Shown here in pieces: positions 2,788-44,995 of a stretch of 64,000 nt of DNA. Made by a program: the position numbers and the translations under genes. The stretch is from a virus, in IMG/VR virus record IMGVR_UViG_3300044701_003269, positions 62,001-126,000 of that record, one strand, 5' to 3'. Under the pieces are notes generated by a model, which ran no database searches, had not been told where the DNA came from, and was given only the letters and a program-made list of their open reading frames with translations. The number at the start of each line of letters is the position of its first letter. Positions within the stretch are counted from its first letter, which is position 1.

Positions 2788-2808
2788 TTGAGTTCTATAA
2801 AACTCCAA

Positions 2809-3130: not shown

Positions 3131-3140
3131 AAATACTTAG

Positions 3141-3761: not shown

Positions 3762-3804
3762 AATAAAAAAGGTGATACTAAACCAAACCCCTTCCGTGTG
3801 ACTT

Positions 3805-3827: not shown

Positions 3828-3830
3828 TTG

Positions 3831-3841
3831 TAATAAATACT
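3831..3841 (+). promoter_or_regulatory. Late-promoter box (TAATAAATACT)
   Basis: The box directly abuts the terminator at 3805-3827 and lies 18 bp before the ATG at 3860. It is followed by CAAAAC, like the other copies. Confidence 0.65.
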
Positions 3842-3859
3842 CAAAACTTATTATTAGGT

Positions 3860-4060: not shown

Positions 4061-4064
4061 AAAT

Positions 4065-4094
4065 AAAAACCTCCAGGTGCCTGGAGGTTTTTTT
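4065..4094 (+). terminator. Strong intrinsic terminator
   Basis: The stem AAAAACCTCCAG pairs with CTGGAGGTTTTT around a short loop and is followed by a T-run. It shares the ACCTCC/GGAGGT core with the terminator at 3805. Confidence 0.88.
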
Positions 4095-4097
4095 AAT

Positions 4098-4108
4098 GGA
4101 TAAATAAT
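4098..4108 (+). promoter_or_regulatory. Late-promoter box (GGATAAATAAT)
   Basis: This box lies just after the terminator at 4065-4094 and 27 bp before the start of the 1819-aa gene. Confidence 0.6.
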
Positions 4109-4135
4109 CTATAACAGAACTTATAAAAGAATAAG

Positions 4136-23483: not shown

Positions 23484-24983
23484 ATGGATAAGACCAGACA
23501 ATCTGCAAATCTGGTTTCGGAAAATAATATTTTTTCCGATATCACTAATAACAGAGTTGGTATAGCAACCACAAATCCAACATCAACACTTCAAGTCATC
23601 GGTGATGCAACAATTAGTGGTGTTGTTACTGCATCAAGTTTTGTTGGAAATCTAACTGGTACGGCATCCACAGCAACAGAAGCAGGAACTGCTTATGGAC
23701 TAACTGGAAGTCCTAATATTACTGTTGGAACCGTTACTGGTAACTTAACAGGAACTGCTTCTACAGCAACAGAAGCAGGAACTGCTTATGGACTAACCGG
23801 AAGTCCTAATATTACTGTTGGTATTGTTACTTTATCAAGTGCGGTTGTTAGTGGAAACGTAAGTATCGCAGGAACTCTTACATACGAAGATGTAACGAAT
23901 GTAGATTCGATTGGGATTGTAACAGCTCGTGCTGGTATTGTTCTTGGACCAACAGCAAATACAATTCAGTTAGGAACAGGAACCACGATTAGTTCTCCAA
24001 GTTCTGATACATTTACTGTAAGTACTAATGGTAGTGAGAGAGTTAGGGTTGATTCGAGTGGGAGACTGGGTATTGGCAATACGAGTCCTGATACAAAACT
24101 AGATTTAGATGGCGCGTTCTTCTTGCGGCCAACATCAGAGTCATTCCCGTCTGAAAATGGCGGGGGCCTAAGGATTAGATCGGACACGTCGACTCTTGAA
24201 CTACGGGGATTACAATGGACACCCAGTGTTGTTTATTACGATATAAATTATCAGGGACTGCAGCATTACTGGAGTGTTAACGGTAGTGAGAAAGCGCGCA
24301 TCGACAGTTCCGGAAGATTTGGCTTGGGTACGTCGAGTCCTGGAGCAACTCTTGATGTTTCGGAAACTTCATCGGGCGCAACAGTCACAAGTCTGTTCCT
24401 GCGCAACCCTGCTGCTTTAGCTGCTGGAACTGTTTCTCGTCTTGCAATGACTGCTGTCAATACAGGCAGTCGATTTGCATATATAGATGCTGGAGTCACT
24501 GGAGCATCCGATAACGGGCATTATTTAGCCTTTGGAACCAACCCTGCTGGGGGTGCCCCGACAGAAAAAGCCCGAATATCATCATCAGGTGGTTTCTCAG
24601 TAGGAACCACAGCAAACCCTGGAGCAGGAGCAATCTATGCAACAGGAGACATCACTGCATTCTATTCATCAGACATCAGATTAAAGAAAGATATTGAACC
24701 AATCTCAGAACCCATCAAAAAACTGATGGAGATTTCTGGTGTTACTTATAAGTGGAATGAAGAATATCTGAAAGATAAGGATGTTGATGGATACTTTGTA
24801 AGAGAAACTGAAGTTGGTGTGATTGCACAAGATGTTGAGAAAGTTCTCCCAGAAGTTGTTGCAACTCGTGAGAATGGATATAAGGCAGTTAGATATGAGA
24901 AACTGGTTGCTCTTCTGATTGAAGCAGTTAAAGATCAACAAAAACAAATCGACGAACTGAAAGCAAGATTAGAGGAGGTTTGA
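23484..24983 (+). CDS. Tail fibre with S74 self-cleaving chaperone, 499 aa
   Basis: The N-terminus (TRQSANLVSENNIFSDI) is shared with fibre genes at 30692 and 43088 and is probably the attachment segment. The shaft has GIATTNPTSTLQVIGD and two near-identical units around NLTGTASTATEAGTAYGL. The C-terminal 105 residues form an intramolecular chaperone of peptidase S74 type: Ser396 in SSDIRLKKDI is the expected cleavage serine with Lys401/402, followed by GVIAQDVEKVLPEVV and a terminal coiled coil (KDQQKQIDELKARLEE). Such domains drive trimer folding and then cut themselves off. Codon use in about 24100-24620 is visibly GC-richer than in neighbours, suggesting the distal shaft was acquired by recombination. 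Confidence 0.92.
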   Translation: MDKTRQSANLVSENNIFSDITNNRVGIATTNPTSTLQVIGDATISGVVTASSFVGNLTGTASTATEAGTAYGLTGSPNITVGTVTGNLTGTASTATEAGTAYGLTGSPNITVGIVTLSSAVVSGNVSIAGTLTYEDVTNVDSIGIVTARAGIVLGPTANTIQLGTGTTISSPSSDTFTVSTNGSERVRVDSSGRLGIGNTSPDTKLDLDGAFFLRPTSESFPSENGGGLRIRSDTSTLELRGLQWTPSVVYYDINYQGLQHYWSVNGSEKARIDSSGRFGLGTSSPGATLDVSETSSGATVTSLFLRNPAALAAGTVSRLAMTAVNTGSRFAYIDAGVTGASDNGHYLAFGTNPAGGAPTEKARISSSGGFSVGTTANPGAGAIYATGDITAFYSSDIRLKKDIEPISEPIKKLMEISGVTYKWNEEYLKDKDVDGYFVRETEVGVIAQDVEKVLPEVVATRENGYKAVRYEKLVALLIEAVKDQQKQIDELKARLEEV

Positions 24984-30667: not shown

Positions 30668-30679
30668 TTGATAAATACT
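30668..30679 (+). promoter_or_regulatory. Late-promoter box (TTGATAAATACT)
   Basis: Follows the terminator at 30632 and precedes the fibre gene at 30692. Terminator and promoter together are duplicated at 43025-43072. Confidence 0.65.
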
Positions 30680-30691
30680 TATAAAAAGTAA

Positions 30692-31990
30692 ATGAATAAG
30701 ACCAGAAGATCTGCAAACCTGGTTTCTAAAAATAATATTTTTTCTAGTATTACCAACCATAGAGTTGGTATAGGAACCACAATACCACAATATCAACTTG
30801 ATGTTCTTGGTGATATTAATTTCAGCGGATCCTTAAATCAAGGTGGTAGTTCATTTGTTGCATCTAGATGGACTGCTGGAACTGGAGATGATATTTACAG
30901 ATTAAGTGGTGACGTTGGCATAGGAACCACAAATCCTCAATATAGCCTTGATGTTCTTGGAGATATTAACTTCACAGGGACCTTTAGACAAAACGGTAGT
31001 GCATTTGTTGCATCTAGATGGACTGCTGGAACTGGTGACGATATTTATAGACTTAATGGTGATGTTGGAATTGGAATATCAAATCCCCAATATAGCCTTG
31101 ATGTTCTTGGTGATATTAATTTTACAGGGACCTTTAGACAAAACGGTAGTGAATTTGTTGCATCTAGTGTTGCAACCAATTCTGTTGGTCTTGGAACTCA
31201 TACTTATGGTGACTATGTAAAAGATATTATAGGAACTGCAAATCAAATTACAGTTACTTCGGGAACTGGTGAGGGTTCTTCTCCAACACTAAGCATACCA
31301 AATCAATTTACAGCACCACAAGACGTTAGGATTACAAGAGATCTTCAAGTTGATCGTGATTTAAATGTAAATGGTAATATCACAATTGGTGGTACATCAG
31401 CTACATTATTCACCACAGAATTAAAAGTTTATGATGCTGATATTGTTCTTGGTATAAGAACTGATGAAAGTGGTAATGATATCTCAACAGATAATACAGC
31501 TAATCACGGTGGTATCGCTGTAGCATCAACAGAAGGAACACCACTTATCAGTCTTTATGATGTTGGAATAGGAGAAACAAATCCAGCCACATATAAGAAA
31601 ATTATGTGGTTTAAGTCCGGTACTTTTGCTGGACTTGGAACTGATGCTTGGTTGATTAACTACGGCGTCGGTATTGGAAGCACCCAAGTACCTGATGGAG
31701 TAAGACTTGCTGCCGGATCAGTTCAATTTACCGAGAGTGATTTATCGGTTGTCAGAAATATTAATGCAACTGGTATTGTTACTGCTACCAGTTTTAGTGG
31801 TGATGGAAGTTCTATTACTGGTATTGCTCGCGGCGGTGGTTCTGACGAAATCTTTTATGAAAACGGACAGACAGTAACCACAGACTATACAATCAGCACA
31901 TCCAAAAATGCGATGAGTGCAGGGCCCATTGGTATTGCAACAGGAATTACAGTCACTATTCCATCAGGTTCTACCTGGACCATCGTATAA
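30692..31990 (+). CDS. Modular tail fibre, 432 aa
   Basis: The N-terminus TRRSANLVSKNNIFSSI is the attachment segment shared with 23484 and 43088. Three tandem copies of a roughly 50-residue unit follow (YSLDVLGDINFTGTFRQNG, SAFVASRWTAGTGDDIYRL). Next come FTAPQDVRITRDLQVDRDLN and the recurrent module DIVLGIRTDESGND ... IAVASTEGTPL ... KKIMWFKSGT, closely matched in 43421. It ends with TSFSGDGSSITGIARGGG and a beta tip (YTISTSKNAMSAGPIGIATG). There is no S74 chaperone. It appears to be assembled by shuffling of shared blocks. Confidence 0.88.
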   Translation: MNKTRRSANLVSKNNIFSSITNHRVGIGTTIPQYQLDVLGDINFSGSLNQGGSSFVASRWTAGTGDDIYRLSGDVGIGTTNPQYSLDVLGDINFTGTFRQNGSAFVASRWTAGTGDDIYRLNGDVGIGISNPQYSLDVLGDINFTGTFRQNGSEFVASSVATNSVGLGTHTYGDYVKDIIGTANQITVTSGTGEGSSPTLSIPNQFTAPQDVRITRDLQVDRDLNVNGNITIGGTSATLFTTELKVYDADIVLGIRTDESGNDISTDNTANHGGIAVASTEGTPLISLYDVGIGETNPATYKKIMWFKSGTFAGLGTDAWLINYGVGIGSTQVPDGVRLAAGSVQFTESDLSVVRNINATGIVTATSFSGDGSSITGIARGGGSDEIFYENGQTVTTDYTISTSKNAMSAGPIGIATGITVTIPSGSTWTIV

Positions 31991-32004
31991 GGAGGTAAAA
32001 ACAA

Positions 32005-32487
32005 ATGCCCGTATCAATTAATGGAGATGGTATTGTCTCTGGAGTTACTACCTTTGTTAATACTACAACACCTTTCACTTTTGTAGGTGTTACTACTTTT
32101 GGTTCTATTGAGGCTAATGCTATTAATGCTGGTGTTGTTACTTCTACAAGTTTTGTTGGCAATGTTACTGGTAATGCCACTGGACTATCAGGAACACCAA
32201 ATCTAAATGTTGGTGTTGTTACTGCATCAAGTTTTGTTGGCAATGTTACCGGTAACGTAACAGGAAATGCAACAGGATTAAGTGGAACTCCAAATCTAAA
32301 TGTTGGTGTTGTTACTGCATCAAGTTTTGTTGGCAATGTTACTGGTAATGCCACTGGACTATCAGGAACTCCAAATCTAAATGTTGGTGTTGTTACTGCT
32401 ACTTCTTATTATGGCTCAGGGGCCAATCTTACTAATTTAAATATACCTGCAGGTTTCAATGAACTTGATGCTGCTTTGTTTAACTAA
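32005..32487 (+). CDS. Repetitive fibre-shaft protein, 160 aa
   Basis: A strong ribosome-binding site (AAGGAGGTAAAAACA) precedes the ATG. Three to four copies of GVVTASSFVGNVTGNATGLS plus GTPNLNV make up most of the protein, a pattern typical of trimeric shaft domains in cyanophage fibres. It is too short to be a complete fibre with a tip. It may be a separate distal segment joined to the preceding 432-aa fibre, or the remnant of a split fibre gene. Confidence 0.8.
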   Translation: MPVSINGDGIVSGVTTFVNTTTPFTFVGVTTFGSIEANAINAGVVTSTSFVGNVTGNATGLSGTPNLNVGVVTASSFVGNVTGNVTGNATGLSGTPNLNVGVVTASSFVGNVTGNATGLSGTPNLNVGVVTATSYYGSGANLTNLNIPAGFNELDAALFN

Positions 32488-32492
32488 ATAGA
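32482..32492 (+). promoter_or_regulatory. Late-promoter-like box (AACTAAATAGA)
   Basis: Overlaps the stop codon of the shaft gene and lies 16 bp before the ATG at 32509. A weaker match than most. Confidence 0.35.
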
Positions 32493-32508
32493 AATAAAAG
32501 ATGTAAAG

Positions 32509-32922
32509 ATGTCTCTTAGAAGAACTAAATTATTACACATTCAGTCAGTTACAGGTATTGCAACAGTTGGTATTTTTACTGTTGGAACTACCCAAACTGC
32601 TGGTGGTGTTGGTATTGCATCAACTACTTATCTGCGTGGTGTAGTGATGCATAATACAGGTCTTTCAACAGCAACTTCATCACTCTACATTTATCCAAAC
32701 AGCGTTTCATCTCCAGTAACTGGGGTTGGCCAAACAGCATACCGATTATCAAGAATTGATTTGAGATCTAATGAAACATTCTTCTTTGAGACAAATTATC
32801 CGATAGTTCTTGGGCACGGCGATAAGGTAGTTGTAGAAATTACACAACCAGCAGTTACAGTTGGTGGTGCTGGAATTGGTAGTGCTGTAAATTACCAAAT
32901 ACTTGGCGACACTGATATTTGA
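32509..32922 (+). CDS. Small virion protein, 137 aa
   Basis: This 137-aa beta-rich protein has an N-terminal HIQSVTGIATVGIFTVG, a central RGVVMHNTGLSTATSSLYIY and a C-terminal SNETFFFETNYPIVLGHGDK followed by a strand pair. The order (internal strand pair, YPIVLGHGDKVVVE edge) parallels the proteins at 18068 and 21824, which also sit between a fibre and an adhesin. Probably a capping or connecting subunit. No enzymatic motif seen. Confidence 0.78.
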   Translation: MSLRRTKLLHIQSVTGIATVGIFTVGTTQTAGGVGIASTTYLRGVVMHNTGLSTATSSLYIYPNSVSSPVTGVGQTAYRLSRIDLRSNETFFFETNYPIVLGHGDKVVVEITQPAVTVGGAGIGSAVNYQILGDTDI

Positions 32923-32935
32923 GGAGGATAGATAA

Positions 32936-34777
32936 ATGGGCGTAAGATCTACTGATTTAGCATCATCTTTCTTTGATCGTTTCTTGAGAACTCAGAATGG
33001 GGGAACTAATCCACCCAATACAGGATTAACAGCAACTGGTGGTGTTATTAGTGATTATACAACTCCTCCAGGAGCAGTTTATAGAGCACACATTTTTACT
33101 TCATCAGGCACTTTTATTGTAAGTTCTATTGGTGATTTTGATGCTACTGTAGAGTATCTCGTAGTTGCTGGTGGTGGGTCTGGCGGAGATACTGGTGGTG
33201 GTGGTGCTGGTGGATTTAGAACTAATGTATCCGGACATCCATTAGCAGGATCAGCATTTCCAGTTAGTATTTCTTCATACCCAGTAGTTGTTGGTGCAGG
33301 TGCTGCTCCCGGAGGGGGGGATACCTTACGGGGTGTTAATGGCAATCCTTCTACTTTTTCTACAATAACTTCTGCTGGTGGTGGAGGAGGAGGGGGAGAA
33401 AGTGCCCCGATTTCTCCTGGTTTGTCTGGTGGATCTGGTGGTGGGGGTGGATATAATTCGCCAGGATCTTTTGGATCTGGTAATACTCCACCAACATCAC
33501 CCCCACAAGGAAATCCTGGCGGAAACGGAGGAACATCTGCTTCCGGTGCTGGGGGAGGTGGTGCTGGCGGCGCTGGTGGTAATGCTTCTGGTGGAACTGC
33601 TGGCGCCGGTGGAATAGGATCTCAAATATCTATTACTGGAATCACTACTTATTATGCAGGAGGTGGCGGAGGAGCATCATCTCCAGGAGTTGCCGGTGCA
33701 GGAGGATTAGGTGGAGGTGGAAATGGTGAGCAGGAGAATGCTGGTGCCGGTGCTGGACAAGAAAACACTGGCGGTGGCGGTGGAGGATTTTGGGGGCAGA
33801 ATCTCCCACTGGGAAATACTGGCAACGGTGGTTCCGGAATCGTAGTAGTCCGTTACCAGATAGGACAATTGACAGCAACTGCAAAAGCAACTGGTGGTGC
33901 TATAAGTTACTTTGGTGGTAAGACAATTCATACCTTTACGAGTTCTGGTACTTTTACCGTTACTAGCCCAACATTAACTTCTGCGGAATACCTGATGGTT
34001 GGTGGCGGCGCTGGTGGAGGTGGAAGACACGGTGGTGGAGGTGGTGCTGGTGGAATGATTTTTGGAAGTCGTCCACTGTCAGTAACTTCATATCCTATTG
34101 TTATTGGATCTGGTGGAATAGGCGTAGAGGGATATTCAAATGGTGGCAATGGGGGTAATACAACTTTTGGCGGAGAAACTGCTAATGGAGGAGGTGGTGG
34201 TGGATATTACAGAGATTCACCTTATGCCGGAATAGCAGGAGCTGCTGGTGGTTCTGGTGGTGGCGGTGGATTTGGTCCCGGTGGTAGTGGTGGAGCATCT
34301 AATCAACCAGCAGGAACATTTGGAACTGCATATGGATTTGGTGGGGGAACTGCAAGTACGAACAATCCTCCTCTAATTTGTGGAGGTGGTGGAGGTGCTG
34401 GTGCAGCAGGAAATCCTTTTACTACTGCCAACGGAGCAGGAGGTGCTGGTAGATTATGGCCAGTTACTGGTTATTACTACGCTGGAGGTGGAGGAGCATC
34501 TTCGTGGGAAGCAAATGCAGGTAATGGTGGAGTAGGTGGTGGAGGTGGAGGTAATGTTGGAAACTTTGGTTCTGTAGGTGTTGGTGGAACAGGAGGATTA
34601 TTTGATGGTGAGAATGGATTACTTTCTGGAAATGATGGTGTATATCGTAGAGGTGGTAATGGAGCTCAATCTACCGGTGGTGGTGGAGGAGGAGGAGGAC
34701 AATCTGCATATCTTTCATATAGATCATCAGGTGGTAATGGTGGTTCCGGAATCGTCATCATCGCATATCCTTCATAA
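32936..34777 (+). CDS. Tandem glycine-rich adhesin, 613 aa
   Basis: It has an excellent ribosome-binding site (GAGGAGGATAGATAA). Two complete glycine-rich adhesin domains are fused. The first opens ATGGVISDYTTPPGAVY ... VEYLVVAGGG and ends GGSGIVVVRYQIG. The second opens ATGGAISYFGGKTIHTFTSSG ... AEYLMVGGGA and ends GGSGIVIIAYPS. The doubled architecture is unique in this window, other glycine-rich genes having one full domain. It retains the TPPTSPPQGNPGG linker found in 22208 and 24987. Probably a receptor-binding tip with two specificities or an elongated tip. Confidence 0.86.
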   Translation: MGVRSTDLASSFFDRFLRTQNGGTNPPNTGLTATGGVISDYTTPPGAVYRAHIFTSSGTFIVSSIGDFDATVEYLVVAGGGSGGDTGGGGAGGFRTNVSGHPLAGSAFPVSISSYPVVVGAGAAPGGGDTLRGVNGNPSTFSTITSAGGGGGGGESAPISPGLSGGSGGGGGYNSPGSFGSGNTPPTSPPQGNPGGNGGTSASGAGGGGAGGAGGNASGGTAGAGGIGSQISITGITTYYAGGGGGASSPGVAGAGGLGGGGNGEQENAGAGAGQENTGGGGGGFWGQNLPLGNTGNGGSGIVVVRYQIGQLTATAKATGGAISYFGGKTIHTFTSSGTFTVTSPTLTSAEYLMVGGGAGGGGRHGGGGGAGGMIFGSRPLSVTSYPIVIGSGGIGVEGYSNGGNGGNTTFGGETANGGGGGGYYRDSPYAGIAGAAGGSGGGGGFGPGGSGGASNQPAGTFGTAYGFGGGTASTNNPPLICGGGGGAGAAGNPFTTANGAGGAGRLWPVTGYYYAGGGGASSWEANAGNGGVGGGGGGNVGNFGSVGVGGTGGLFDGENGLLSGNDGVYRRGGNGAQSTGGGGGGGGQSAYLSYRSSGGNGGSGIVIIAYPS

Positions 34778-34783
34778 ATATTC
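34771..34783 (+). promoter_or_regulatory. Late-promoter box (TTCATAAATATTC)
   Basis: Contains the stop codon of the 613-aa adhesin, is followed by AAAAC, and lies 27 bp before the ATG at 34811. Confidence 0.55.
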
Positions 34784-34810
34784 AAAACGAACATTACAGA
34801 TAATTAACCA

Positions 34811-35209
34811 ATGGCACATTTCGCACAACTTGATGAAAACAATATAGTTACTCAAGTCATTGTTGTGAGTAACGAAGATACTTCCGACTCAAACGGAACA
34901 GAAATAGAAGAAATTGGAATTGGTTTCTGTAAAAAACTTCTTGGTGCTAATACAAAATGGAAGCAAACCTCATACAACAACAATATGAGAGTTCGTTATG
35001 CTGGTATTGGTTATTCTTATAATGAAGAACTTGATGCATTTATTCCGCCACAACCATTTGTCTCTTGGGTATTAAATACAGAAACAGCAGATTGGGAATC
35101 TCCAGTTGGCCCTGCTCCAGAACTTACTGAAGTAGAAAGAGAATCAGGTTCTTTCTATCAATGGGATGAAGAAAACACCCAGTGGAATCTTATAACCCCA
35201 GAACAGTAG
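34811..35209 (+). CDS. MAHFAEL-family fibre-associated protein, 132 aa
   Basis: A paralogue of 26014 and 28547: MAHFAQLDENNIVTQVIVVS, then IGFCKKLLGANTKWKQTSYN, MRVRYAGIGYSYNEELDAF, IPPQPFVSWVLNTETADWES and the tail PELTEVERESGSFYQWDEEN. It again directly follows a glycine-rich adhesin and closes a cassette before the next late promoter. It has its own late box, so it can be expressed separately from the adhesin. Confidence 0.84.
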   Translation: MAHFAQLDENNIVTQVIVVSNEDTSDSNGTEIEEIGIGFCKKLLGANTKWKQTSYNNNMRVRYAGIGYSYNEELDAFIPPQPFVSWVLNTETADWESPVGPAPELTEVERESGSFYQWDEENTQWNLITPEQ

Positions 35210-35216
35210 TAGAAGA

Positions 35217-35227
35217 TAATAAATACT
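35217..35227 (+). promoter_or_regulatory. Late-promoter box (TAATAAATACT)
   Basis: A strong copy followed by AAAAAG, 23 bp before the 877-aa fibre gene. Confidence 0.68.
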
Positions 35228-35250
35228 AAAAAGAGTACCATAAGAATATA

Positions 35251-37884
35251 ATGTCTTCACTCAAGTTATACGGATCTACCAGTGGGTATGTTGAGATTGT
35301 CCCAGAAGTAACAGCAGGTAATAATTCGGTTACTCTTCCCAATACTACTGGTTCTATTGCAGTAAAGGATGCGAGTGGTAATCTTGAAGTAGGAACTGGA
35401 GTTACTATTTCTTCTCCAAGTGCTGATACTTTCGCTGTAAGTACTAATGGTAGTGAGAGAGTTAGAGTTGATTCAAGTGGTAATGTTGGTATAGGAACCA
35501 CAATACCACAGTATAACCTTGATGTTCTTGGAGATATTAATTTCAGTGGATCTCTAAATCAAGGTGGTAGTGCATTCGTTGCCTCTAGATGGACTGCAGG
35601 AACTGGTAATGATATCTATAGATTAAGTGGTGATGTTGGAATAGGAACGACAAATCCCCAATATAGCCTTGATGTTCTTGGTGATATTAATTTTACCGGA
35701 ACCTTTAGACAAAACGGTAGTGCATTTGTTGCCTCTAGATGGACTGCTGGAATTGGTGATGATATCTATAGGTTAAGTGGTGATGTTGGAATAGGAACGA
35801 CAAATCCAACAGCAAAACTTGAAGTTGTAGGTAATGTTGTTGCAGATGGATCTGATATTAGAAGTTTATCGGGAACACATTTAGTCTCTTATTCTTCTGT
35901 TTCTGATATTGCTAATTCTGCAAAGAGTATTACTGGATTTAGCACATATCGTCAAGTTGGTGTCTTAACTGCTGGTAGCAATACAAACTCTGGTGATGAC
36001 TTTGGTTATTCAGTTGCAGTAACTGCTGATGGAAACACTATTTTTGTTGGTGCAAGAAAAGATGAAATTGGAGGAAGTAGTAATAGTAGTGGTGCTGTTT
36101 ATGTATTTGATCGTGTAGGCCTAGGTAGTTCTTTCTATCAAGTTGGTATCTTAACAGGATCACTTGCTTCAAATAGTTCCGATTATTTCGGACAAAGTGT
36201 TGCTTGCACTCCTGACGGAAAAACATTAATTGCTTCTGCTCCTTTTGATGAAAGCGGTGGTTTAATGTATGTTTTTGATCGAGTTGGAAATAATTTTAAT
36301 CAAGTTGGAATTTTATCTGCTTCAATTGTAAACACATCTGACGAAAATTTTGGTGTATCTATTGACATAAGTGCTGACGGTAAAACAATTGTTGGTGGTT
36401 ATGATTTCGTATCATTACCTGGATATACCGCAAATTCTGGTGCAGCATTTGTTTGGGAACGTGATGGGAACACATTTACAGAGGTTGGAATTTTAACAGC
36501 AGCAACACCTGAGACTTTTTCTCAATTTGGTGAGGCAGTAGCAATTAGTGGTGATGGTAAAACAATCGTTGTTGGATCTCTTGGGGAAAGTGGTGGCACT
36601 GGTTATGCTTATGGATCTATTAATATTTTTGACCGTGTTGGTGTTGGAACAACGTCAGTATTTAATAGGGTTGGTGTTATAACAGGCACTAAGGCAACTT
36701 CAATAGATGATGATAATTTTGGATGTTCTGTTGATATTAGTTATGATGGAAGTTCAATTATTGTTGGTGATTTTAATGGTGATGTAACTGGTGTTACAAC
36801 AACTGGTACTGCTTCTGTCTATGACAGAGTTGGAAATAATTTTAATCTTGTTGGTATTTTTACTGGATCACGTTCTACAAGGCTTGGATACTTTGGAAAT
36901 ACAGTTGTAATGAGTCCAGATGGTAAGAGAATGTTGGTGACTGCATTAAGTGAGGGAAGTGGGAATGAAGGACTTGTCTATATTTTTGAAAGACAGGGAA
37001 ATACTATTAGTCAAGTTGGCATAGTAACTGGATATAGTCCTGGAATTACATATGATATTGGAACTCCTTTTGATAAGCATCTGGGAATGAGTGCTGATGG
37101 AAAAACAATGGTTCTTGGAGCTCCTGGATCTACTGTTTCTGGAAATGCTAGCGCAGGTGCCGCTTTTGTTTTTGATGAGGTCGAGCAAACATACTTATAT
37201 TCATCTCCTACTGGAAATATCGGTATAGGGGTCACAAATCCAGGTCAGGCCTTAGATGTATCCGGTTCTATAAGATCATCATCACAAATTATATCAACTC
37301 AAGCAAACTCCACAACAACTGGTGGTGGCCAAATATACTTGAATGGTGCAACAGGTAACAGAATTGATTTTAACTCAAATGGTGTTGCTGCTCCTACAAC
37401 AACTACAAGAAGTGCAGGAACCAAGATAGTTTTATATCCAAATATTAGTCCTTCATCTGCAGACTATGGATTTGGTATTGAAGCTTCCACATTATGGTCT
37501 GGAGTTTCATCAAGTGCGGATCAATTCAAATGGTATGCAGGAACCACTAACGTTGCAACTTTGAGTGGCACGGGTACATTTACTACAACAACACTCGTAG
37601 AAACTTCAAGTATCACACTCAAAGAAAATATAAATCCTATTGAGAATGCACTAGATAAGATACTACAATTAAATCCAGTAACTTATGATCGTAAGAACAA
37701 CATAAGTAAGAATGAAGCAGGATTGATTGCAGAAGAAGTTAATGAGATTATTCCAAATATTGTTTCTAAAGACAGTGAAGGAAATCCAAATGGTATCAAT
37801 TACACAAAACTTTCTGTGTATTTGATTGATGCAATTAAGGAACTGAAGAAAGAGATTGAGGACTTAAGAAATGGCAACTCTTAA
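35251..37884 (+). CDS. Fibre with seven-bladed FG-GAP propeller and S74 chaperone, 877 aa
   Basis: Residues 1-240 are fibre shaft: VTLPNTTGSIAVKDASGNLE, VSTNGSERVRVDSSGN and two DVLGDINF units nearly identical to those in 30692. Residues about 245-650 hold seven consecutive repeats of the FG-GAP (integrin-alpha-like) type, each with FGxSVxxSxDGKTIxxG and a strand ending YVFDRVG or similar. Seven units would close one beta-propeller. Residues 650-780 are shaft again (TTTGGGQIYLNGATGNRIDF), shared with 43421. The end is an S74 chaperone: Ser787 in SSITLKENINP, K791, then AGLIAEEVNEIIPNIV and a coiled coil. The propeller is probably a receptor-binding insert. Confidence 0.9.
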   Translation: MSSLKLYGSTSGYVEIVPEVTAGNNSVTLPNTTGSIAVKDASGNLEVGTGVTISSPSADTFAVSTNGSERVRVDSSGNVGIGTTIPQYNLDVLGDINFSGSLNQGGSAFVASRWTAGTGNDIYRLSGDVGIGTTNPQYSLDVLGDINFTGTFRQNGSAFVASRWTAGIGDDIYRLSGDVGIGTTNPTAKLEVVGNVVADGSDIRSLSGTHLVSYSSVSDIANSAKSITGFSTYRQVGVLTAGSNTNSGDDFGYSVAVTADGNTIFVGARKDEIGGSSNSSGAVYVFDRVGLGSSFYQVGILTGSLASNSSDYFGQSVACTPDGKTLIASAPFDESGGLMYVFDRVGNNFNQVGILSASIVNTSDENFGVSIDISADGKTIVGGYDFVSLPGYTANSGAAFVWERDGNTFTEVGILTAATPETFSQFGEAVAISGDGKTIVVGSLGESGGTGYAYGSINIFDRVGVGTTSVFNRVGVITGTKATSIDDDNFGCSVDISYDGSSIIVGDFNGDVTGVTTTGTASVYDRVGNNFNLVGIFTGSRSTRLGYFGNTVVMSPDGKRMLVTALSEGSGNEGLVYIFERQGNTISQVGIVTGYSPGITYDIGTPFDKHLGMSADGKTMVLGAPGSTVSGNASAGAAFVFDEVEQTYLYSSPTGNIGIGVTNPGQALDVSGSIRSSSQIISTQANSTTTGGGQIYLNGATGNRIDFNSNGVAAPTTTTRSAGTKIVLYPNISPSSADYGFGIEASTLWSGVSSSADQFKWYAGTTNVATLSGTGTFTTTTLVETSSITLKENINPIENALDKILQLNPVTYDRKNNISKNEAGLIAEEVNEIIPNIVSKDSEGNPNGINYTKLSVYLIDAIKELKKEIEDLRNGNS

Positions 37885-38707
37885 GAACACAATAATTGAT
37901 ACTACTGGAGCTCTTCAACTACCAGTAGGAACCACAGCACAAAGACCGACTGCAGATGCTGGCCATATGAGGTATAACTCATCATTTAAAACAGTAGAGA
38001 CTTATACTGGAACCAGATGGGAGTATATGCCAGATATTGTAAGAACTGGTTTGGTTCTTAATTTAGATGCTGGAGAACCAAGTTCTTATTCTGGTAGTGG
38101 AACTACTTGGACTGATTTAAGTGGCAATAACTTTGTCGGAACTCTTACAAATGGACCAACTTATAGCAGTTCTAATGGTGGGTCTATTGTTTTTGATGGT
38201 TCCAATGATTATGTGAGAATACCTTATAATAGCAACCTCAATCCAACTACTATAACAGTTGGGGCCTGGATAAAAAGAAATCAAGTCGTAAATTACGCTC
38301 ATTTTATTGGACTTCCTATCAGCAATTCAACTTGGAATTCGCCTTATATGTCTTATGGTGTTGAATATATTGGAACCACAGATACAATTAGTTTTCCTCT
38401 AGGATTTACTGATAACACTTTTGCTTATACTGATGCGGCTACTTATGGAAACAATATATGGTTTTATTTTACAGGAACCTACGACAAAAGTAATGTAAAA
38501 GTTTATATTGACGGGGTACTTATTACTACCAGGGCAGAAACTAGAACATTATACAATTCAACTGCTGATTTTTATATTGGCGCTATTAACACTTCTTCTC
38601 AATATCCTTTGAATGGAAACATAGCACAAGTAACCATATACAACAGAGCCCTCTCAGCATCAGAAATCCAACAAAACTATCAGGCACTTAGAGGAAGGTT
38701 TATATAA
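37871..38707 (+). CDS. LamG/concanavalin-like lectin protein, 278 aa
   Basis: It overlaps the S74 fibre by 14 bp, so it is translationally coupled. Residues 1-60 are a leader shared with 38711 and 39766 (ATLKNTIIDTTGALQLPVGT, TAQRP, MRYNSSFK). Residues 60-275 form a LamG-like jelly-roll: LVLNLDAGEPSSYSGSGTTW, DLSGNNFVGTLTNGP, VFDGSNDYVRIPYNSNLNP, ITVGAWIKRN, FTGTYDKSNVKVYIDGVLI, IAQVTIYNRALSASEIQQNY, in the usual order of the fold. Such domains bind glycans. Probably a carbohydrate-binding tip. It ends 3 bp before the next paralogue. Confidence 0.9.
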   Translation: MATLKNTIIDTTGALQLPVGTTAQRPTADAGHMRYNSSFKTVETYTGTRWEYMPDIVRTGLVLNLDAGEPSSYSGSGTTWTDLSGNNFVGTLTNGPTYSSSNGGSIVFDGSNDYVRIPYNSNLNPTTITVGAWIKRNQVVNYAHFIGLPISNSTWNSPYMSYGVEYIGTTDTISFPLGFTDNTFAYTDAATYGNNIWFYFTGTYDKSNVKVYIDGVLITTRAETRTLYNSTADFYIGAINTSSQYPLNGNIAQVTIYNRALSASEIQQNYQALRGRFI

Positions 38708-38710
38708 GAA

Positions 38711-39490
38711 ATGGCAACTCTAAAAAATCTTACAATCAACGACACTGGATATTTGCAAATGCCTTCTGGGACAGTTGCACAAAGGCCTGCATCACCTTCT
38801 CAAGGAATGATAAGGTACAATACTGACTATAAAGTAAGTGAATATTATAATGGAACTGAATGGGTTTCCACATCACCAGTACCAATGGTAACTAATGGTT
38901 TAACTCTTTATTTGGATGCCACATCTTATCCTGGTTCTGGTACTACTTGGACTGATTTAAGTGGCAATGGATATAATATGACCCTAACTGGATCATTTAC
39001 ATTTACTGGTGCGGCTCTTCAGTTTAATGGTGGATATGGTTATCTAACATCATTAAACTATTCGACTACTAATTTTACAATAATGGCAGGATCAAGATAT
39101 TCTGGTGCGGCAAGACAAAGAGTTATTTCTTCAATGGGAAATAATTGGTTGTTCGGTCATTGGTCAAATTCAACACAAAAATACTATGCTGAAGGGTGGA
39201 TTACAAATTCAAGTCAAAATGAAAATAGTGACACAAATTGGAGAATATATACGGGATTGGAAAATTATACTTCAGACCAAAGAAGTTTTTATGTTAATAA
39301 CACTGCATTGGTAACTAATTCCACTGCAGGCGCTGCTGGTTTTAATGGATTAAGTGTCGGTATATGGGGATATAACAATACTGAAGGTTCAAATTGCGAA
39401 GTATCTTTTATACTAGTTTATAATAGGTTATTGTCATCAGAAGAGATGACACAAAACTTTAATGCTTTTCGTGGTCGTTTTGGTATCTAA
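38711..39490 (+). CDS. LamG-like lectin protein, 259 aa
   Basis: The second of three paralogues: leader ATLKNLTINDTGYLQMPSGT, AQRPASPSQGMIRYNTD; lectin part LTLYLDATSYPGSGTTWTDL, SGNGYNMTLTGSFTF, LQFNGGYGYLTSL and the end SFILVYNRLLSSEEMTQNF. The middle of the jelly-roll is shorter than in 37871 and lacks the canonical VYIDG strand, replaced by RSFYVNNTALVTN. The fold is kept but the ligand-binding face probably differs. It ends in a late-type box overlapping the stop codon. Confidence 0.88.
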   Translation: MATLKNLTINDTGYLQMPSGTVAQRPASPSQGMIRYNTDYKVSEYYNGTEWVSTSPVPMVTNGLTLYLDATSYPGSGTTWTDLSGNGYNMTLTGSFTFTGAALQFNGGYGYLTSLNYSTTNFTIMAGSRYSGAARQRVISSMGNNWLFGHWSNSTQKYYAEGWITNSSQNENSDTNWRIYTGLENYTSDQRSFYVNNTALVTNSTAGAAGFNGLSVGIWGYNNTEGSNCEVSFILVYNRLLSSEEMTQNFNAFRGRFGI

Positions 39491-39496
39491 ATACCT
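39486..39496 (+). promoter_or_regulatory. Late-promoter box (TCTAAATACCT)
   Basis: Contains the stop codon of the second lectin gene and is followed by AAAAAAC, 8 bp before the ATG at 39505. Confidence 0.45.
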
Positions 39497-39504
39497 AAAA
39501 AACA

Positions 39505-39762
39505 ATGTACGACGAAAGAAATTTTGCAATCTTTTCAACAACTGAACTCAACCAAATTAACTTTAGTGAAGTATTAGAAACTTCAGCAGAAACTTGTCGC
39601 ATCAGTACAAATGGTTCTCTCACATTCGTTAAGTGGGATGGAGAAACTGTACCACCATCAGTACAAGCACTTACAACCATTCAGGGTTATTATACTTATG
39701 AGGAAATGTTGAATATTCTTGCCTTACCCGAATGGACTTCACCAGACCTCATTGAACCATAA
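39505..39762 (+). CDS. Small acidic protein between lectin genes, 85 aa
   Basis: This 85-aa protein (DERNFAIFSTTELNQINFSE, ETCRISTNGSLTFVKWDGE, YTYEEMLNILALPEWTSPD) is acidic, with a strand pair and a C-terminal helix. It occupies the place that MAHFAEL-type proteins take in other cassettes and shares their size and charge but not their sequence. It could be a partner of the flanking lectin proteins. No family recognised. Confidence 0.72.
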   Translation: MYDERNFAIFSTTELNQINFSEVLETSAETCRISTNGSLTFVKWDGETVPPSVQALTTIQGYYTYEEMLNILALPEWTSPDLIEP

Positions 39763-39765
39763 GAA

Positions 39766-40623
39766 ATGGCAACTCTAAAAAGCTTAACAGTTAATGATAC
39801 TGGTTTCATAAAATTACCTTCAGGAACCATTGCACAAAGACCTTCATCACCATCTAATAATATGATGAGGTTTAATACTGATTTGGGTTGTAATGAAATG
39901 TACTCTAATGGAAATTGGATGGACCAATTAACAGGAGGCCCTGCAGTTATTAAGAATGGTTTAGTTCTTCATTTAGATGCAGGTGCTCCTAGGTCTTATC
40001 CAGGTTCAGGAACCTTATGGAGAGATTTAAGTGGTAGTGGACTAAATGCATCTGGAACTGCAGCAAACATCACTTCTTCTGGTGCTATTTCTGGAGCATC
40101 TTGGACAACTTCTTCAACCAGTATATTGAATACGGATACTCATTCAATATTTTTTATGTTAAAACTGAATTCTTCTGGAACTTATCCAGAAGGATATACT
40201 GGAAGTTGGGAAAAAATATTTACTTATGCTCCTGCCGGAACTGATAGAAGTCCGGGTGTTTGGAGATATCCAAGTGAAAGAAAAATACATTGGAGATATG
40301 ATCCGGGGAACAGTGATATTGATTTTTCATCAACGGCGAGAGGACTTTATCCTGCTCCGGGAACACCATTTGCATTAAATACTTGGTATTATATAGGAGT
40401 AACTAAAAATGGAGCAACTGCAACAGCATATGTAAATGGTCAAAGTCTTGGTTCTAGTACAGTATCAAACCCAAAAACATCTGGAAATGCAACAGTAATT
40501 ATAAATGAATCTTATACTAGTCAACTTAATAATATAAATTCTGTAGTTGTATATAACAGAGTACTCACAGCAACGGAAGTTTTACACAACTTTAATTCTA
40601 TAAAATCAAGATTTGGTTTATAA
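39766..40623 (+). CDS. LamG-like lectin protein, 285 aa
   Basis: The third paralogue: leader ATLKSLTVNDTGFIKLPSGT, IAQRPSSPSNNMMRFNTD; lectin part LVLHLDAGAPRSYPGSGTLW, DLSGSGLNASGTAANI, HSIFFMLKLNSSGTYPEG, NTWYYIGVTKNGATATAYVN, INSVVVYNRVLTATEVLHNF. The NGATATAYVNGQ strand matches the canonical lectin VYxDG position. It starts 3 bp after the 85-aa gene. The three lectin paralogues share leaders but diverge in the loops, as expected for diversified specificity. Confidence 0.9.
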   Translation: MATLKSLTVNDTGFIKLPSGTIAQRPSSPSNNMMRFNTDLGCNEMYSNGNWMDQLTGGPAVIKNGLVLHLDAGAPRSYPGSGTLWRDLSGSGLNASGTAANITSSGAISGASWTTSSTSILNTDTHSIFFMLKLNSSGTYPEGYTGSWEKIFTYAPAGTDRSPGVWRYPSERKIHWRYDPGNSDIDFSSTARGLYPAPGTPFALNTWYYIGVTKNGATATAYVNGQSLGSSTVSNPKTSGNATVIINESYTSQLNNINSVVVYNRVLTATEVLHNFNSIKSRFGL

Positions 40624-40673
40624 AATAGCCACTCAGATTAAGATATTATAAATCTATTACATCAAACGCAGAT

Positions 40674-40685
40674 CCATAAATATTA
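40674..40685 (+). promoter_or_regulatory. Late-promoter box (CCATAAATATTA)
   Basis: Followed by AAAAAAG, 20 bp before the fibre gene at 40706. Confidence 0.62.
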
Positions 40686-40705
40686 AAAAAGTCAATAAGT
40701 AAATA

Positions 40706-41857
40706 ATGTCTACGTTAAGAGCAACGAACATTAAAAATCCAGACAGTAGCAGCAATAATATTGTGCTGGATGGCAGTGGTGGTGTTGTAATCAGTGGAGT
40801 GGCAACTATAACAGCATTAAATGCATTAGAGATTACTGGTGGAATGTTTTTAAGTGGAGTAACTACAGTATCTGCAGGTAGTACCAGTGCTCCATCAATA
40901 ACACCATCGGGGGACAATAATACTGGAGTATTCTTTCCAAGTGCCGATACTTTTGCTGTAAGTACTAATGGTAGTGAGAGAATTAGAATTAATTCGAGTG
41001 GTAATGTTGGTATAGGAACCACAAACCCAACATCATCTAAACTTTTTGTAGATGGTGATACAAAAATTACTGGTATTTTAACGGTTGGTACATCAAGTAT
41101 TATTATCGATGGAACAGGTAATGTAATTAATGTAGGTTCAGGTGTCACTATTCATTATCTTGATGGTGTCCAAGTAGGGCAGAATGTTATACATTCTAGT
41201 GGAATTACTCTCAATAACATCAATTCTTCTGGTGTTTCCACACTTACCAATGGGCCAATATTAGTTGGATCAGCAACCTCAACGGGAACTTCATCACAAA
41301 GACTTCAAGTAACTGGTGGTGCTTATGTAAGCGGTAATATTGGTGTTGGTGTTACTAATCCTCAATATAGCCTTGATGTTCTTGGAGATATTAACTTCAC
41401 AGGGACCTTTAGACAAAACGGTAGTGCATTCGTCGCCTCTAGATGGACTGCTGGAACTGGTGATGATATCTATAGATTAAATGGTAATGTTGGAATAGGA
41501 ACCATAAATCCAACAGAAAAACTTCACGTTGTTGGAGTAGTTTCTGCAACTTCTTATCGTGGTGATGGTTCTCAACTGACGGGCGTTGGTGGAGCATCTG
41601 CTGTTACAGTTCTTACATCAGATACGACTTTATCAAAAGGAACTGCATATATGCTGAATGCATCGGGTCTTATATTAACACTTCCTGCTTCTCCTTCAAC
41701 CGGAGATGCTATAGATATTCTAAATAACGTTAGTGGTATTCATACACTTGCTCGTAATGGTTCTACAATTCAAGGATTAACTGAAGACATGACGTTTGGA
41801 GAGCAAGGGATAAAGTTTAAAGTTTGGTATACTGGTTCAACCTGGAGTCTGTTCTAA
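40706..41857 (+). CDS. Modular tail fibre, 383 aa
   Basis: The N-terminus (STLRATNIKNPDSSSNNIVL) is a different attachment type from the NLVS leader. The shaft includes GDNNTGVFFPSADTFAVSTN, GSERIRINSSGNVGIGTTNP and one DVLGDINFTGTFRQNGS unit nearly identical to those in 30692 and 35251. The C-terminal 95 residues form a tip: ASAVTVLTSDTTLSKGTAYM, LTLPASPSTGDAIDILNNVS, ARNGSTIQGLTEDMTFGEQG, a beta-sandwich related to the NGSTIEGLSEDFTLD domain in the collagen-like fibre at 18409. No S74 domain. The next gene overlaps the stop by one base. Confidence 0.87.
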   Translation: MSTLRATNIKNPDSSSNNIVLDGSGGVVISGVATITALNALEITGGMFLSGVTTVSAGSTSAPSITPSGDNNTGVFFPSADTFAVSTNGSERIRINSSGNVGIGTTNPTSSKLFVDGDTKITGILTVGTSSIIIDGTGNVINVGSGVTIHYLDGVQVGQNVIHSSGITLNNINSSGVSTLTNGPILVGSATSTGTSSQRLQVTGGAYVSGNIGVGVTNPQYSLDVLGDINFTGTFRQNGSAFVASRWTAGTGDDIYRLNGNVGIGTINPTEKLHVVGVVSATSYRGDGSQLTGVGGASAVTVLTSDTTLSKGTAYMLNASGLILTLPASPSTGDAIDILNNVSGIHTLARNGSTIQGLTEDMTFGEQGIKFKVWYTGSTWSLF

Positions 41858-42783
41858 TGTCTAACATCTCACAATTTTTTGCAGGAAGAAGAAAGCAAAA
41901 CCGCAGAATTATCCATGGTAGTGTTGGAGTAACCACTGTTACTTGGCGAGTTCCTCCCGGTGTAACTGAAGTTGAGGTTCACTGTTGGGGTGGTGGAGGG
42001 GGAACCTTTGGCTATCCGATCGTTGGTGGCGGGGGTGGTGGAGGTTACGTAACCCATGTGTTCCCCGTTACACCTTCAGATAGTTTATTAATCACTGCTG
42101 GAGCAGTAAATGGTGGAACTTCAAGTGTATCAGTTCCAACACAATCCCCGATTTCTCCCATAAGTGCTACTGGTGGAAGCGGCGCATCTTTGCCAAACCC
42201 GGGGTTCTCCGCAGGTGGTGCCGGTGGAGTCGGAGCATACACTATTGCTCCTGGTATTTCAACAGCAAGAACTTTTAGTGCTTCTGGTGGATCTGGGGCC
42301 CCAGCTGAGGGGGGCAATTCCTTTGCCGGAGGCGGCGCAGCTGGAAGTCCTTTTGGTAAAGGTGGAAATGGGTCTTTTGCCCTTAGTCCTAATGGCATAC
42401 CTGGAGGTGGAGGAGGAGGAATAGGTGGACCAGGTAATAGTGGTACATCTGGCGCTGGAGGAGGTTCTTTAGGTGAAGCAAGTGGAGCTATTGGAGGACT
42501 AGGTAAAAATGGATATAAAGTATTCAGTTCCGTAGCTGCTCCTGCAAATGCTGGATTTGTTGAAAATACTTCTGGGGATAGTGATTGGTTCTATGTAGAT
42601 GAAATTTTAGGTGCTGGAGGAAGTGTAAACTCAATTCATGGTGGAGCAGGTGGAGGCGGATGTTTTCCTGGCGGCCGAGGTGGTATTTTAGGTGGTGGTG
42701 CTGGATCAGGGCCTGGAGGCCTCGGAGGAGGAGGTGGTGGCGGTGCCGTCGGAGGTGCCGGTCTCGTAATACTTTACTGGTAA
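41857..42783 (+). CDS. Glycine-rich adhesin, 308 aa
   Basis: The ATG at 41857 is chosen because it overlaps the previous stop (TAATG) and gives the short leader SNISQFFAGRRKQNRRIIHG. The glycine-rich domain opens with VTWRVPPGVTEVEVHCWGGG, the same entry (WxVPxGVTxxxVxxxGxGGG) as in the 1052-aa protein at 9608 rather than the VEYLVVAGGG type. It ends GGAGLVILYW. Probably a receptor-binding tip for the preceding fibre, followed by a small acidic partner gene. Confidence 0.84.
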   Translation: MSNISQFFAGRRKQNRRIIHGSVGVTTVTWRVPPGVTEVEVHCWGGGGGTFGYPIVGGGGGGGYVTHVFPVTPSDSLLITAGAVNGGTSSVSVPTQSPISPISATGGSGASLPNPGFSAGGAGGVGAYTIAPGISTARTFSASGGSGAPAEGGNSFAGGGAAGSPFGKGGNGSFALSPNGIPGGGGGGIGGPGNSGTSGAGGGSLGEASGAIGGLGKNGYKVFSSVAAPANAGFVENTSGDSDWFYVDEILGAGGSVNSIHGGAGGGGCFPGGRGGILGGGAGSGPGGLGGGGGGGAVGGAGLVILYW

Positions 42784-42799
42784 TAAGGAGGTAACTAAA

Positions 42800-43018
42800 A
42801 TGTCTAAATGGGTAAGAGTAGATTCAAACAACATTGTTCAAGAGGTAATCTCATACAATCCTTTTGAGGTTGTAAACGAAGCTTTTCATTCTTTCTTCCA
42901 TGAGGTATCTGGTGAAGAATCTTATGGGTGGACTTATGATCCTAATACTGGAACCTTTACGGAACCACCACCACTTCCAGAACCACCTGAGGAACCTGTA
43001 ACCGAAGAAACAACTTGA
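42800..43018 (+). CDS. Small acidic fibre-associated protein, 72 aa
   Basis: It has a perfect ribosome-binding site (TAAGGAGGTAACTAAA). The 72-aa product SKWVRVDSNNIVQEVISYNP, WTYDPNTGTFTEPPPLPEPP is a short relative of the MAHFAEL family: same opening (xxxxxVDxNNIVxEVI) and same acidic Pro/Glu tail. It follows a glycine-rich adhesin, as its relatives do. A truncated copy of its C-terminus lies at 30524-30625. Confidence 0.8.
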   Translation: MSKWVRVDSNNIVQEVISYNPFEVVNEAFHSFFHEVSGEESYGWTYDPNTGTFTEPPPLPEPPEEPVTEETT

Positions 43019-43024
43019 TTTTTA

Positions 43025-43048
43025 AGAGGGATAACACCCTCTATTTTT
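43025..43048 (+). terminator. Intrinsic terminator
   Basis: Stem AGAGGG/CCCTCT with a short loop and a T-run. It forms a duplicate of the 30632 terminator with matching flanks on both sides. Confidence 0.8.
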
Positions 43049-43060
43049 ATATAAACTTAA

Positions 43061-43072
43061 TTGATAAATACC
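43061..43072 (+). promoter_or_regulatory. Late-promoter box (TTGATAAATACC)
   Basis: Duplicate of the box at 30668, 15 bp before the ATG at 43088. Confidence 0.62.
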
Positions 43073-43087
43073 TAAAAAGCCTCTAAG

Positions 43088-43390
43088 ATGGGAAAGTCCA
43101 GAGATACTGCAAATTTAGTTAGTCAAAATAGTATTTTTGCTGATATTGATGGTGATATTGGAATAGGAACCACAAATCCAACATCAAAACTTCAAGTTGT
43201 TGGTGATGCAACAATTAGTGGTATTGTTACTGCTACAAGTTTCTCAGGTGATGGTTCTCAATTAACAGGACTATCAAGAATATTGACAATTGGTGTGAGA
43301 ACTGGAACAGCAGTAACATTTAGTGTTACCGAATCTTCATTTAATATTTCTGGAAGAGATGGAGATATTCCAATTAATGTCAATGTATAA
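43088..43390 (+). CDS. Short fibre protein with NLVS leader, 100 aa
   Basis: The leader GKSRDTANLVSQNSIFADI matches those of 23484 and 30692, followed by one shaft unit (GIGTTNPTSKLQVVGDATIS, GIVTATSFSGDGSQLTGL) and a 30-residue C-terminus (ILTIGVRTGTAVTFSVTESS). It is a complete small gene, but its leader plus single unit look like the N-terminus of a longer fibre that has been replaced. It could be an adaptor on which the following 524-aa fibre assembles. Confidence 0.8.
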   Translation: MGKSRDTANLVSQNSIFADIDGDIGIGTTNPTSKLQVVGDATISGIVTATSFSGDGSQLTGLSRILTIGVRTGTAVTFSVTESSFNISGRDGDIPINVNV

Positions 43391-43402
43391 TCAATAAATA
43401 CT
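43391..43402 (+). promoter_or_regulatory. Late-promoter box (TCAATAAATACT)
   Basis: Follows the 100-aa gene directly; TTAAAG comes next and the ATG is at 43421. Confidence 0.62.
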
Positions 43403-43420: not shown

Positions 43421-44995
43421 ATGGCTAATAGATTTCCATTAATTGCAAATTCTAGTTCAAATCAAATACAAGAACTTGCTTCTGGCGATAACCTTGATTT
43501 GACTAATTCGGGAATCAATAATGTTGGTAATATTTACTCAGTTGGTGTTGTTACTGCCACAAGTTTTTATGGGGATTTGGATGGAAATGCAACTTATGCA
43601 ACAACTGCTGGTTTAAGTACAGACGCAACAAAGCTTCAAACACCAAGAACGTTTGAAATTACAGGTGATGTAGTTGCCTCTGCAATTTCCTTTGATGGTT
43701 CAGGTAACGTATCATTAGCCGCAACCATTCAACCAAATTCGGTTGGTCTTGGAACTGATACTGAGGGTGAGTATGTAACAAATATCACGGGTACAGCAAA
43801 TCAAATTGAAGTTACTGGTGGAACTGGCGAAGGTTCAACACCAACATTAAGTGTTCCAAGTCAATTCACAGCACCACAAGATGTTACGGTCACTAGAGAT
43901 TTACAAGTCAATCGTGATCTTAATGTAAATGGAAACATTACGATTGGTGGAACTGGTGCAACTCTCTTTACAACTGAGTTTAAAGTTTTTGATCCAGATA
44001 TTGTTCTGGGTTTTAGAACTGATGGTAGTGGTAATGATATCTCAACAGATAATACAGCTAATCACGGTGGTATTGCAATTGCATCCACTGAGGGAACTCC
44101 TCTGATTTCTCTTTATGATGTAGGTGTTGGTGAAACAAATCCTGCCACATATAAGAAAATTATGTGGTTTAAGTCTGGAACATTCTCTGGATTAGGTACT
44201 GATGCTTGGATAAGTAATTATGCAATTGGCATTGGAAGTACTCAAGTACCTAATGGAGTTAGACTTGCTGCTGGTTCAGTTAAATTTACTGAAAATGACT
44301 TATCCGTTGTAAGAAATATTAATGCAACTGGCGTTGTTACTGCAACATCATTTAGTGGTTCTGGATCATCATTAACTGATGTCCCGATTTCTACAGGTAT
44401 TTCTGGACTTGGTGCAAATGTAGCAACATTCTTAGCAACACCTTCATCATCAAACTTAGCATCAGCAGTTACCGGTGAGACTGGTTCTGGAGCATTAGTA
44501 TTTGCCAATACCCCAACATTAGTTACTCCCGATATCGGTGCTGCTACAGGAACTTCTTTGAGTGTTTCGGGACAACTTGTTTCAACTCAAGCAAACTCCA
44601 CAACAACTGGTGGAGGACAGATATACTTGAATGGCGCAACAGGTAACAGAATTGACTTCAATATAAATGGTGTTGCTGCTCCTGCATTTGGAACAAGAAG
44701 TGCGGGAACAAAGATAGCTTTATATCCAGGCCTTGGTGCTTCGAGTGCAGACTATGCACTAGGTATTGAAAGTAGTACATTATGGTCTTCTGTTCCCACT
44801 ACTTCACAACAATTTAAATGGTATGCAGGAACCACCAACGTTGCAACTTTAACGGGATCTGGAAACTTATCATTAACAGGAAACTTAACTTCTAGTTCCG
44901 GAACTCTAGGATCAAATGGCACTGGAAATAGAACAGTTCAAGCCGGAGGATCTCCTAGTGGAGGTTCAGATGGTGACATCTATTATATTTACTAA
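43421..44995 (+). CDS. Modular tail fibre, 524 aa
   Basis: The N-terminus ANRFPLIANSSSNQIQELAS, GDNLDLTNSGINNVGN is a distinct attachment type. The centre (SVGLGTDTEGEYVTNITGTA, PQDVTVTRDLQVNRDLNVNG, DIVLGFRTDGSGND, YKKIMWFKSGTFSGLGTDAW) is nearly collinear with the second half of 30692. The part STQANSTTTGGGQIYLNGAT, FKWYAGTTNVATLTGSG matches 35251 just before its S74 domain, but here the fibre ends with GNRTVQAGGSPSGGSDGDIYY, a common alternative C-terminus in cyanophage fibres. It is therefore a mosaic of blocks found in two neighbours. Confidence 0.88.
   Translation: MANRFPLIANSSSNQIQELASGDNLDLTNSGINNVGNIYSVGVVTATSFYGDLDGNATYATTAGLSTDATKLQTPRTFEITGDVVASAISFDGSGNVSLAATIQPNSVGLGTDTEGEYVTNITGTANQIEVTGGTGEGSTPTLSVPSQFTAPQDVTVTRDLQVNRDLNVNGNITIGGTGATLFTTEFKVFDPDIVLGFRTDGSGNDISTDNTANHGGIAIASTEGTPLISLYDVGVGETNPATYKKIMWFKSGTFSGLGTDAWISNYAIGIGSTQVPNGVRLAAGSVKFTENDLSVVRNINATGVVTATSFSGSGSSLTDVPISTGISGLGANVATFLATPSSSNLASAVTGETGSGALVFANTPTLVTPDIGAATGTSLSVSGQLVSTQANSTTTGGGQIYLNGATGNRIDFNINGVAAPAFGTRSAGTKIALYPGLGASSADYALGIESSTLWSSVPTTSQQFKWYAGTTNVATLTGSGNLSLTGNLTSSSGTLGSNGTGNRTVQAGGSPSGGSDGDIYYIY

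Follow-up and report, generated by a model that had tools for sequence, protein, structure and literature searches.

The DNA considered here is a window of 64 kb contained in a virus record of 174 kb (IMG/VR record IMGVR_UViG_3300044701_003269). The first 8 kb of the window resemble phages of Synechococcus and Prochlorococcus, with best identities of about 65-71%, and the virus is therefore probably a T4-like cyanophage with marine cyanobacteria as its hosts. A fibre gene on the plus strand encodes 877 amino acids (aa), and its features, together with the evidence from which each was assigned, are as follows.

35219..35225, + strand: ATAAATA, resembling a T4-type late promoter, about 25 bases ahead of the start codon
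35251..37884, + strand: fibre gene, 877 aa (open reading frame and translation)
35251..35484, + strand: N-terminal region, aa 1-78 (shared with the S74 fibre gene at 23484-24983, 45% over aa 1-94)
35485..35853, + strand: N-side shaft blocks with GDVGIGTTNP repeats, aa 79-201 (comparison with open reading frames of the window)
35860..35940, + strand: entry linker, aa 204-230, RSLSGTHLVSYSSVSDIANSAKSITGF (locus comparison)
35941..37206, + strand: seven-bladed FG-GAP_2 beta-propeller, aa 231-652 (Pfam, blade profile, AlphaFold2, Foldseek)
35953..36138, + strand: blade unit 1, aa 235-296 (blade profile, as for all units)
36139..36300, + strand: blade unit 2, aa 297-350
36301..36480, + strand: blade unit 3, aa 351-410
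36481..36666, + strand: blade unit 4, aa 411-472
36667..36846, + strand: blade unit 5, aa 473-532
36847..37011, + strand: blade unit 6, aa 533-587
37012..37194, + strand: blade unit 7, aa 588-648
37207..37266, + strand: exit shaft motif GNIGIGVTNP..., aa 653-672 (motif of the same type as the N-side shaft)
37267..37596, + strand: C-side shaft block, aa 673-782 (shared with the open reading frame at 43421-44995)
37597..37881, + strand: Peptidase_S74 intramolecular chaperone, aa 783-877, with the dyad S786 and K791 (Pfam, residue check)

An earlier sequence-only reading of the locus had described the protein as an S74-type fibre, and this is borne out by a Pfam match to Peptidase_S74 at the C-terminus (aa 786-838, 53 bits against a cut-off of 22, E 3.1e-14). 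The Ser/Lys dyad consists of S786 and K791, five residues apart, and the same spacing is known from MYRF (S578/K583) and from phage endosialidases (PMC3742443).

Fibre-like neighbour genes include those with LamG_3 (37871, 39766), glycine-rich genes (22208, 32936, 41824) and a gene with S74 (23484). The ATAAATA motif is also found within about 40 bases before the fibre-like genes at 23484, 30692, 34811, 40706, 43088 and 43421, and over the whole window it is no more frequent than chance would give. From 30671 to 43400, it precedes many plus-strand fibre-like genes, in keeping with T4-type late promoters. Hypervariable islands of marine phages often hold genes for tail fibres and lectin-type proteins (PMC3909814).

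Seven FG-GAP_2 blades and their predicted fold

The repeats of the fibre match the Pfam family FG-GAP_2 (PF14312) with 96 bits against a cut-off of 23 (E 1.2e-27). FG-GAP_2 matches were obtained in 11 of 11 aligned propellers, and the fibre is the sole FG-GAP_2 protein found in the virus record. Blades were delimited with a profile built from two relatives only, from which the window protein's own blades were excluded, and this profile found exactly seven consecutive units of 30-68 bits each (aa 235-290, 297-350, 351-409, 411-464, 474-532, 534-585 and 588-648). The best score among 500 shuffles was 9.1 bits, with never more than one unit above 8 bits, and chance repeats are thereby ruled out. 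The seven consecutive units claimed from the letters alone are thus upheld by an independent profile, while the unit itself, described as FG-x-SV...DGKTI, holds in part: the DG turn is present in all seven blades, FG is present in six of them, blade 7 reading FD, and the blades have diverged.

Mean identity between blades is 37% within the fibre versus 51-78% within its relatives, and the blades of certain relatives look recently amplified or homogenised. When the fibre's blades are compared with those of relatives, identity at the same position (47%) is barely higher than that at different positions (45%). Blades 6 and 7 retain position-specific endings (NRQGN and FDExxxTY, respectively), which suggest that the propeller domain moves as a whole. 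Column entropies place the variable columns in two loop regions and the conserved columns in the strands and the DG turn.

The sequence-only reading had proposed a seven-bladed propeller and structure prediction as the means of checking it. An AlphaFold2 model of aa 204-663, made from 11 sequences (ten of them relatives), has a pLDDT of 78.8 and a pTM of 0.83 and is a propeller of seven four-stranded blades, in which a single strand leads into seven groups of four (1 + 28 strands). Confidence is low in the entry helix and around aa 596-603. A model of the single 877-aa sequence without an alignment has a pLDDT of 36 and is unusable for the fold or for placing the propeller relative to the shaft. 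In the usual propeller scheme, the ring is closed by a leading strand that completes the last blade. Judged from strand order and fold matches rather than from the coordinates, the leading strand of the fibre would likewise complete blade 7, and the propeller including this closing strand extends over about aa 231-652.

In a Foldseek comparison with the PDB, integrin alpha propellers took ranks 1-17 (best E 4.9e-14, TM about 0.6), with WD40 proteins behind them and 6-phosphogluconolactonase-type enzymes lower. The integrin alpha propeller (FG-GAP, PF01839) is therefore the closest solved fold, with seven blades and FG-GAP-type repeats, but it belongs to a cellular receptor, and the likeness does not extend to the family. 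Pfam gave no match to PF01839 in the fibre at E<=1, and no Ca-binding DxDxDG motif occurs in the fibre or in seven relatives; on these two grounds, membership of the integrin family is rejected. A sequence-profile search of the PDB reached integrin alpha-L only at E 0.063, which is not significant, and a sequence search of the PDB returned only S74 and bd2133-type shaft matches and no propeller. The term 'integrin-like', used in the sequence-only reading, is true for the fold alone, and the family is FG-GAP_2.

Occurrence of the propeller and of the shaft blocks

A search for the propeller in other fibres had also been suggested, and scans of IMG/VR, which gave 36 loci with related FG-GAP repeats, found the module in unlike fibres. 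Complete propellers of the IMG/VR fibre relatives have seven blades in nearly all cases, including the close relatives with 44-50% propeller identity (L005, L006, L010, L011-L014, L015 and L016). The near-identical loci L019-L032 have fourteen blades, arranged as two sevens with a linker between them, in a 2180-aa protein ending in S74 (ORF 1822-8361, nearly identical in more than 10 contigs). L018, with six strong blades, seems to be the L011 type in a shortened allele or assembly, and in L033 the propeller runs off the contig end. A more distant protein, L042, has FG-GAP_2 and S74 joined as well. Four ORFs on the 32-kb contig of L005 (IMGVR_UViG_3300030085_005130) together give 28 FG-GAP_2 matches, the number that four seven-bladed propellers would have. 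Of the L005 propellers (L005:2-3490 and 6679-8206), one lies in a fibre with an upstream BNR/sortilin-type propeller and the three others lie in separate proteins of about 400 aa. At L006:4646-7747, a propeller lies beside collagen-like GLQGTQ repeats and the reading frame switches on both sides; the fusion, which could reflect either genuine frameshifting or a fault in assembly, carries no weight here.

Relatives of the propeller occur in only 9 of 50,697 phage records, and no record gave a match over most of the fibre. Those of S-TIM5, nt-1 and UFOVP1367 are stand-alone proteins of the same Pfam family but, unlike the fibre, they are about 400-470 aa long, outside any shaft and without S74; the S-TIM5 protein is annotated as a virion structural protein. 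A 1480-aa Kyanoviridae protein of phage C48C1 (L049, 2216-6658) has FG-GAP repeats in two separate groups, both surrounded by other repeat segments. A scan of genome contigs gave only three weak bacterial matches.

The N-side shaft blocks of the fibre are 85% identical to part of the ORF at 30692-31990 and are also present in that at 40706-41857, and the C-side block (aa 673-793) is 69% identical to part of the ORF at 43421-44995. All three of these ORFs are without a propeller. The C-side block was found in 23 further viral loci, and FG-GAP blades in none of the 23. The shaft parts are therefore independent of the propeller, and to this extent the sequence-only reading, that a propeller had been inserted between shaft blocks found elsewhere without it, was right; but the N-side and C-side blocks lie in different genes. 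A fibre in which the two shaft blocks adjoin without a propeller was sought via the C block and via shaft plus linker and not found, and FG-GAP blades were present in 0 of the 103 loci fetched in these two ways. As the two blocks were never found joined in one gene, insertion into one ancestral fibre is not established, and modular assembly fits.

The entry linker, LVSYxSxSDxxNSAxSIxG, occurs only directly before FG-GAP propellers in the loci examined, which were mostly fetched through propellers. On the other side, the exit leads into a generic shaft motif, G-N/D-V/I-G-I-G-T-T-N-P, which recurs about ten times in the fibre genes of the window with similar DNA, and this repeated DNA (GxVGIGTTNP) may offer sites for homologous recombination that exchange the module. 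The propeller and its entry linker are best read as an exchangeable module, which phages would place into different shafts. That a single insertion instead placed the propeller in an older fibre whose two shaft blocks were already joined is possible, although we lean against it. Both blocks do exist without a propeller in the same window, and the 23 viral loci with a bladeless C block point the same way; the joined form, however, was found nowhere, and a linker confined to propellers with a generic repeat at the exit is fitted equally well by mosaic assembly. We read a single insertion as one special case of module shuffling among fibres, and it does not conflict with the function preferred here, receptor binding. 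The ORFs at 30692-31990 and 43421-44995 also have in common a long block (TRDLQV.RDLNVNGNITIGGT... to ...VRLAAGSV) that is absent from the propeller fibre, another sign of such shuffling.

Role of the propeller in the fibre

The protein is likely to be a late virion fibre of a T4-like cyanophage, a trimer matured by S74, in which FG-GAP_2 propellers are looped from the shaft and probably bind the host. Host attachment is likely because of the neighbouring fibre genes, the S74 dyad, precedents of the phi11 type and the fibre islands of marine phages. On the model of S74 fibres and tailspikes, the shaft would consist of three chains, and the C-terminal S74 domain would drive trimerisation and then cut itself at S786. 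In each chain, aa 231-652 would project from the shaft as a looped-out propeller, and the three propellers would make a platform or collar on the fibre, comparable to that of the phi11 receptor-binding protein. The variable loops between strands would probably bind a glycan or protein of the host surface; the face of the propeller that would do so is not readable from sequence. We infer the trimer, the self-cleavage and the location in the virion, as well as the binding of a receptor.

The receptor-binding protein of the S. aureus phage phi11 is a homotrimer with one propeller per chain between the stem and a C-terminal part. Its mid-chain propellers have a cavity that could hold GlcNAc, and the three touch little and form a platform (PMC4901313). 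It differs from the fibre in having five blades and a coiled-coil stem, and FG-GAP repeats and S74 are not reported for phi11. On the analogy with such systems, receptor binding by the propeller of the fibre is likely. PRD1 P2, PhiKZ gp131 and the endosialidases of K1F and phi92 are listed as other virion propellers (PMC4901313). Propeller-bearing phage fibres are already a known idea, and the FG-GAP_2 fibre is a variant of it; a literature search, with most subscription journals outside its reach, gave no paper on FG-GAP within phage fibres.

Rather than setting specificity, the propeller might serve as a rigid spacer or as a decoration that adheres weakly, or it might act as an enzyme. The main rival to host attachment is the first of these, a structural role as spacer, branch point or docking platform with the host bound by another fibre in the cluster, and we consider it unlikely. 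The propeller does lie mid-chain, and not at the tip that remains after removal of S74, but the propellers of the phi11 protein are mid-chain too. The cluster holds other plausible binders, namely the LamG_3 genes at 37871 and 39766, and a virion propeller with unproven function is known in PhiKZ gp131 (PMC4901313). Variable loops on conserved strand cores suit binding better than a structural role; yet unconstrained loops vary too. The C-terminal domain of PhiKZ gp131 (4GBF, cited in PMC4901313) is a seven-bladed propeller of a virion protein at the baseplate periphery, but is C-terminal rather than within a shaft.

A glycan-degrading enzyme resembling the K1F endosialidase is very improbable. 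Endosialidases are among the phage tailspikes that combine a propeller with an S74 tail (PMC4901313, PMC3742443), but Pfam matched the fibre to FG-GAP_2 and to none of the sialidase or glycosidase domains at E<=1, enzymes rank below integrins and WD40 proteins among its nearest solved folds, and no obvious catalytic set is common to the blades; a sialidase-type enzyme was rejected on the domain search and the fold ranking. The K1F and phi92 tailspikes resemble the proposed fibre in having trimeric propellers on a stem and, in K1F, a self-cleaving C-terminal S74, but their propeller is of the sialidase-type enzyme and not FG-GAP. That propeller has six blades.

Little is known of the fibre domains by which cyanophages recognise their hosts. 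With host attachment as the preferred reading, the propeller offers a candidate binding module that is compact and clearly delimited, has a confidently predicted fold and several natural variants, and lends itself to expression and testing.

FG-GAP proteins of giant and algal viruses

Among the predicted viral structures of BFVD, the folds nearest to the propeller are mostly from giant and algal viruses. They include a collagen-repeat protein of Mimivirus LCMiAC01 (E 7.9e-33, TM 0.77, the upper end of the range), mimivirus-like proteins, LamG proteins of Pyramimonas orientalis virus and an S74-named protein of a Bathycoccus virus. These viruses differ in infecting eukaryotes, some of the proteins carry collagen or LamG, and identity is about 27-29% in the best fold alignments. 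The predicted folds of giant viruses suggest that FG-GAP repeats are widespread. Whether FG-GAP_2 propellers are a shared attachment module, passed between cyanophages and the giant viruses of algae and protists with collagen-like, LamG or S74 partners, is doubtful; if they were, unrelated aquatic DNA viruses would touch their hosts with the same fold family. Phages and giant viruses may instead each have acquired the module from cells. In virions of PkV RF02, an FG-GAP protein was detected by mass spectrometry and classed under virus entry (PMC11953307). According to a 2024 paper, the prasinovirus MntV1 is possibly the first virus in which FG-GAP repeats have been confirmed (PMC11467894), and the FG-GAP proteins of phages, both alone and within fibres, argue against this suggestion.
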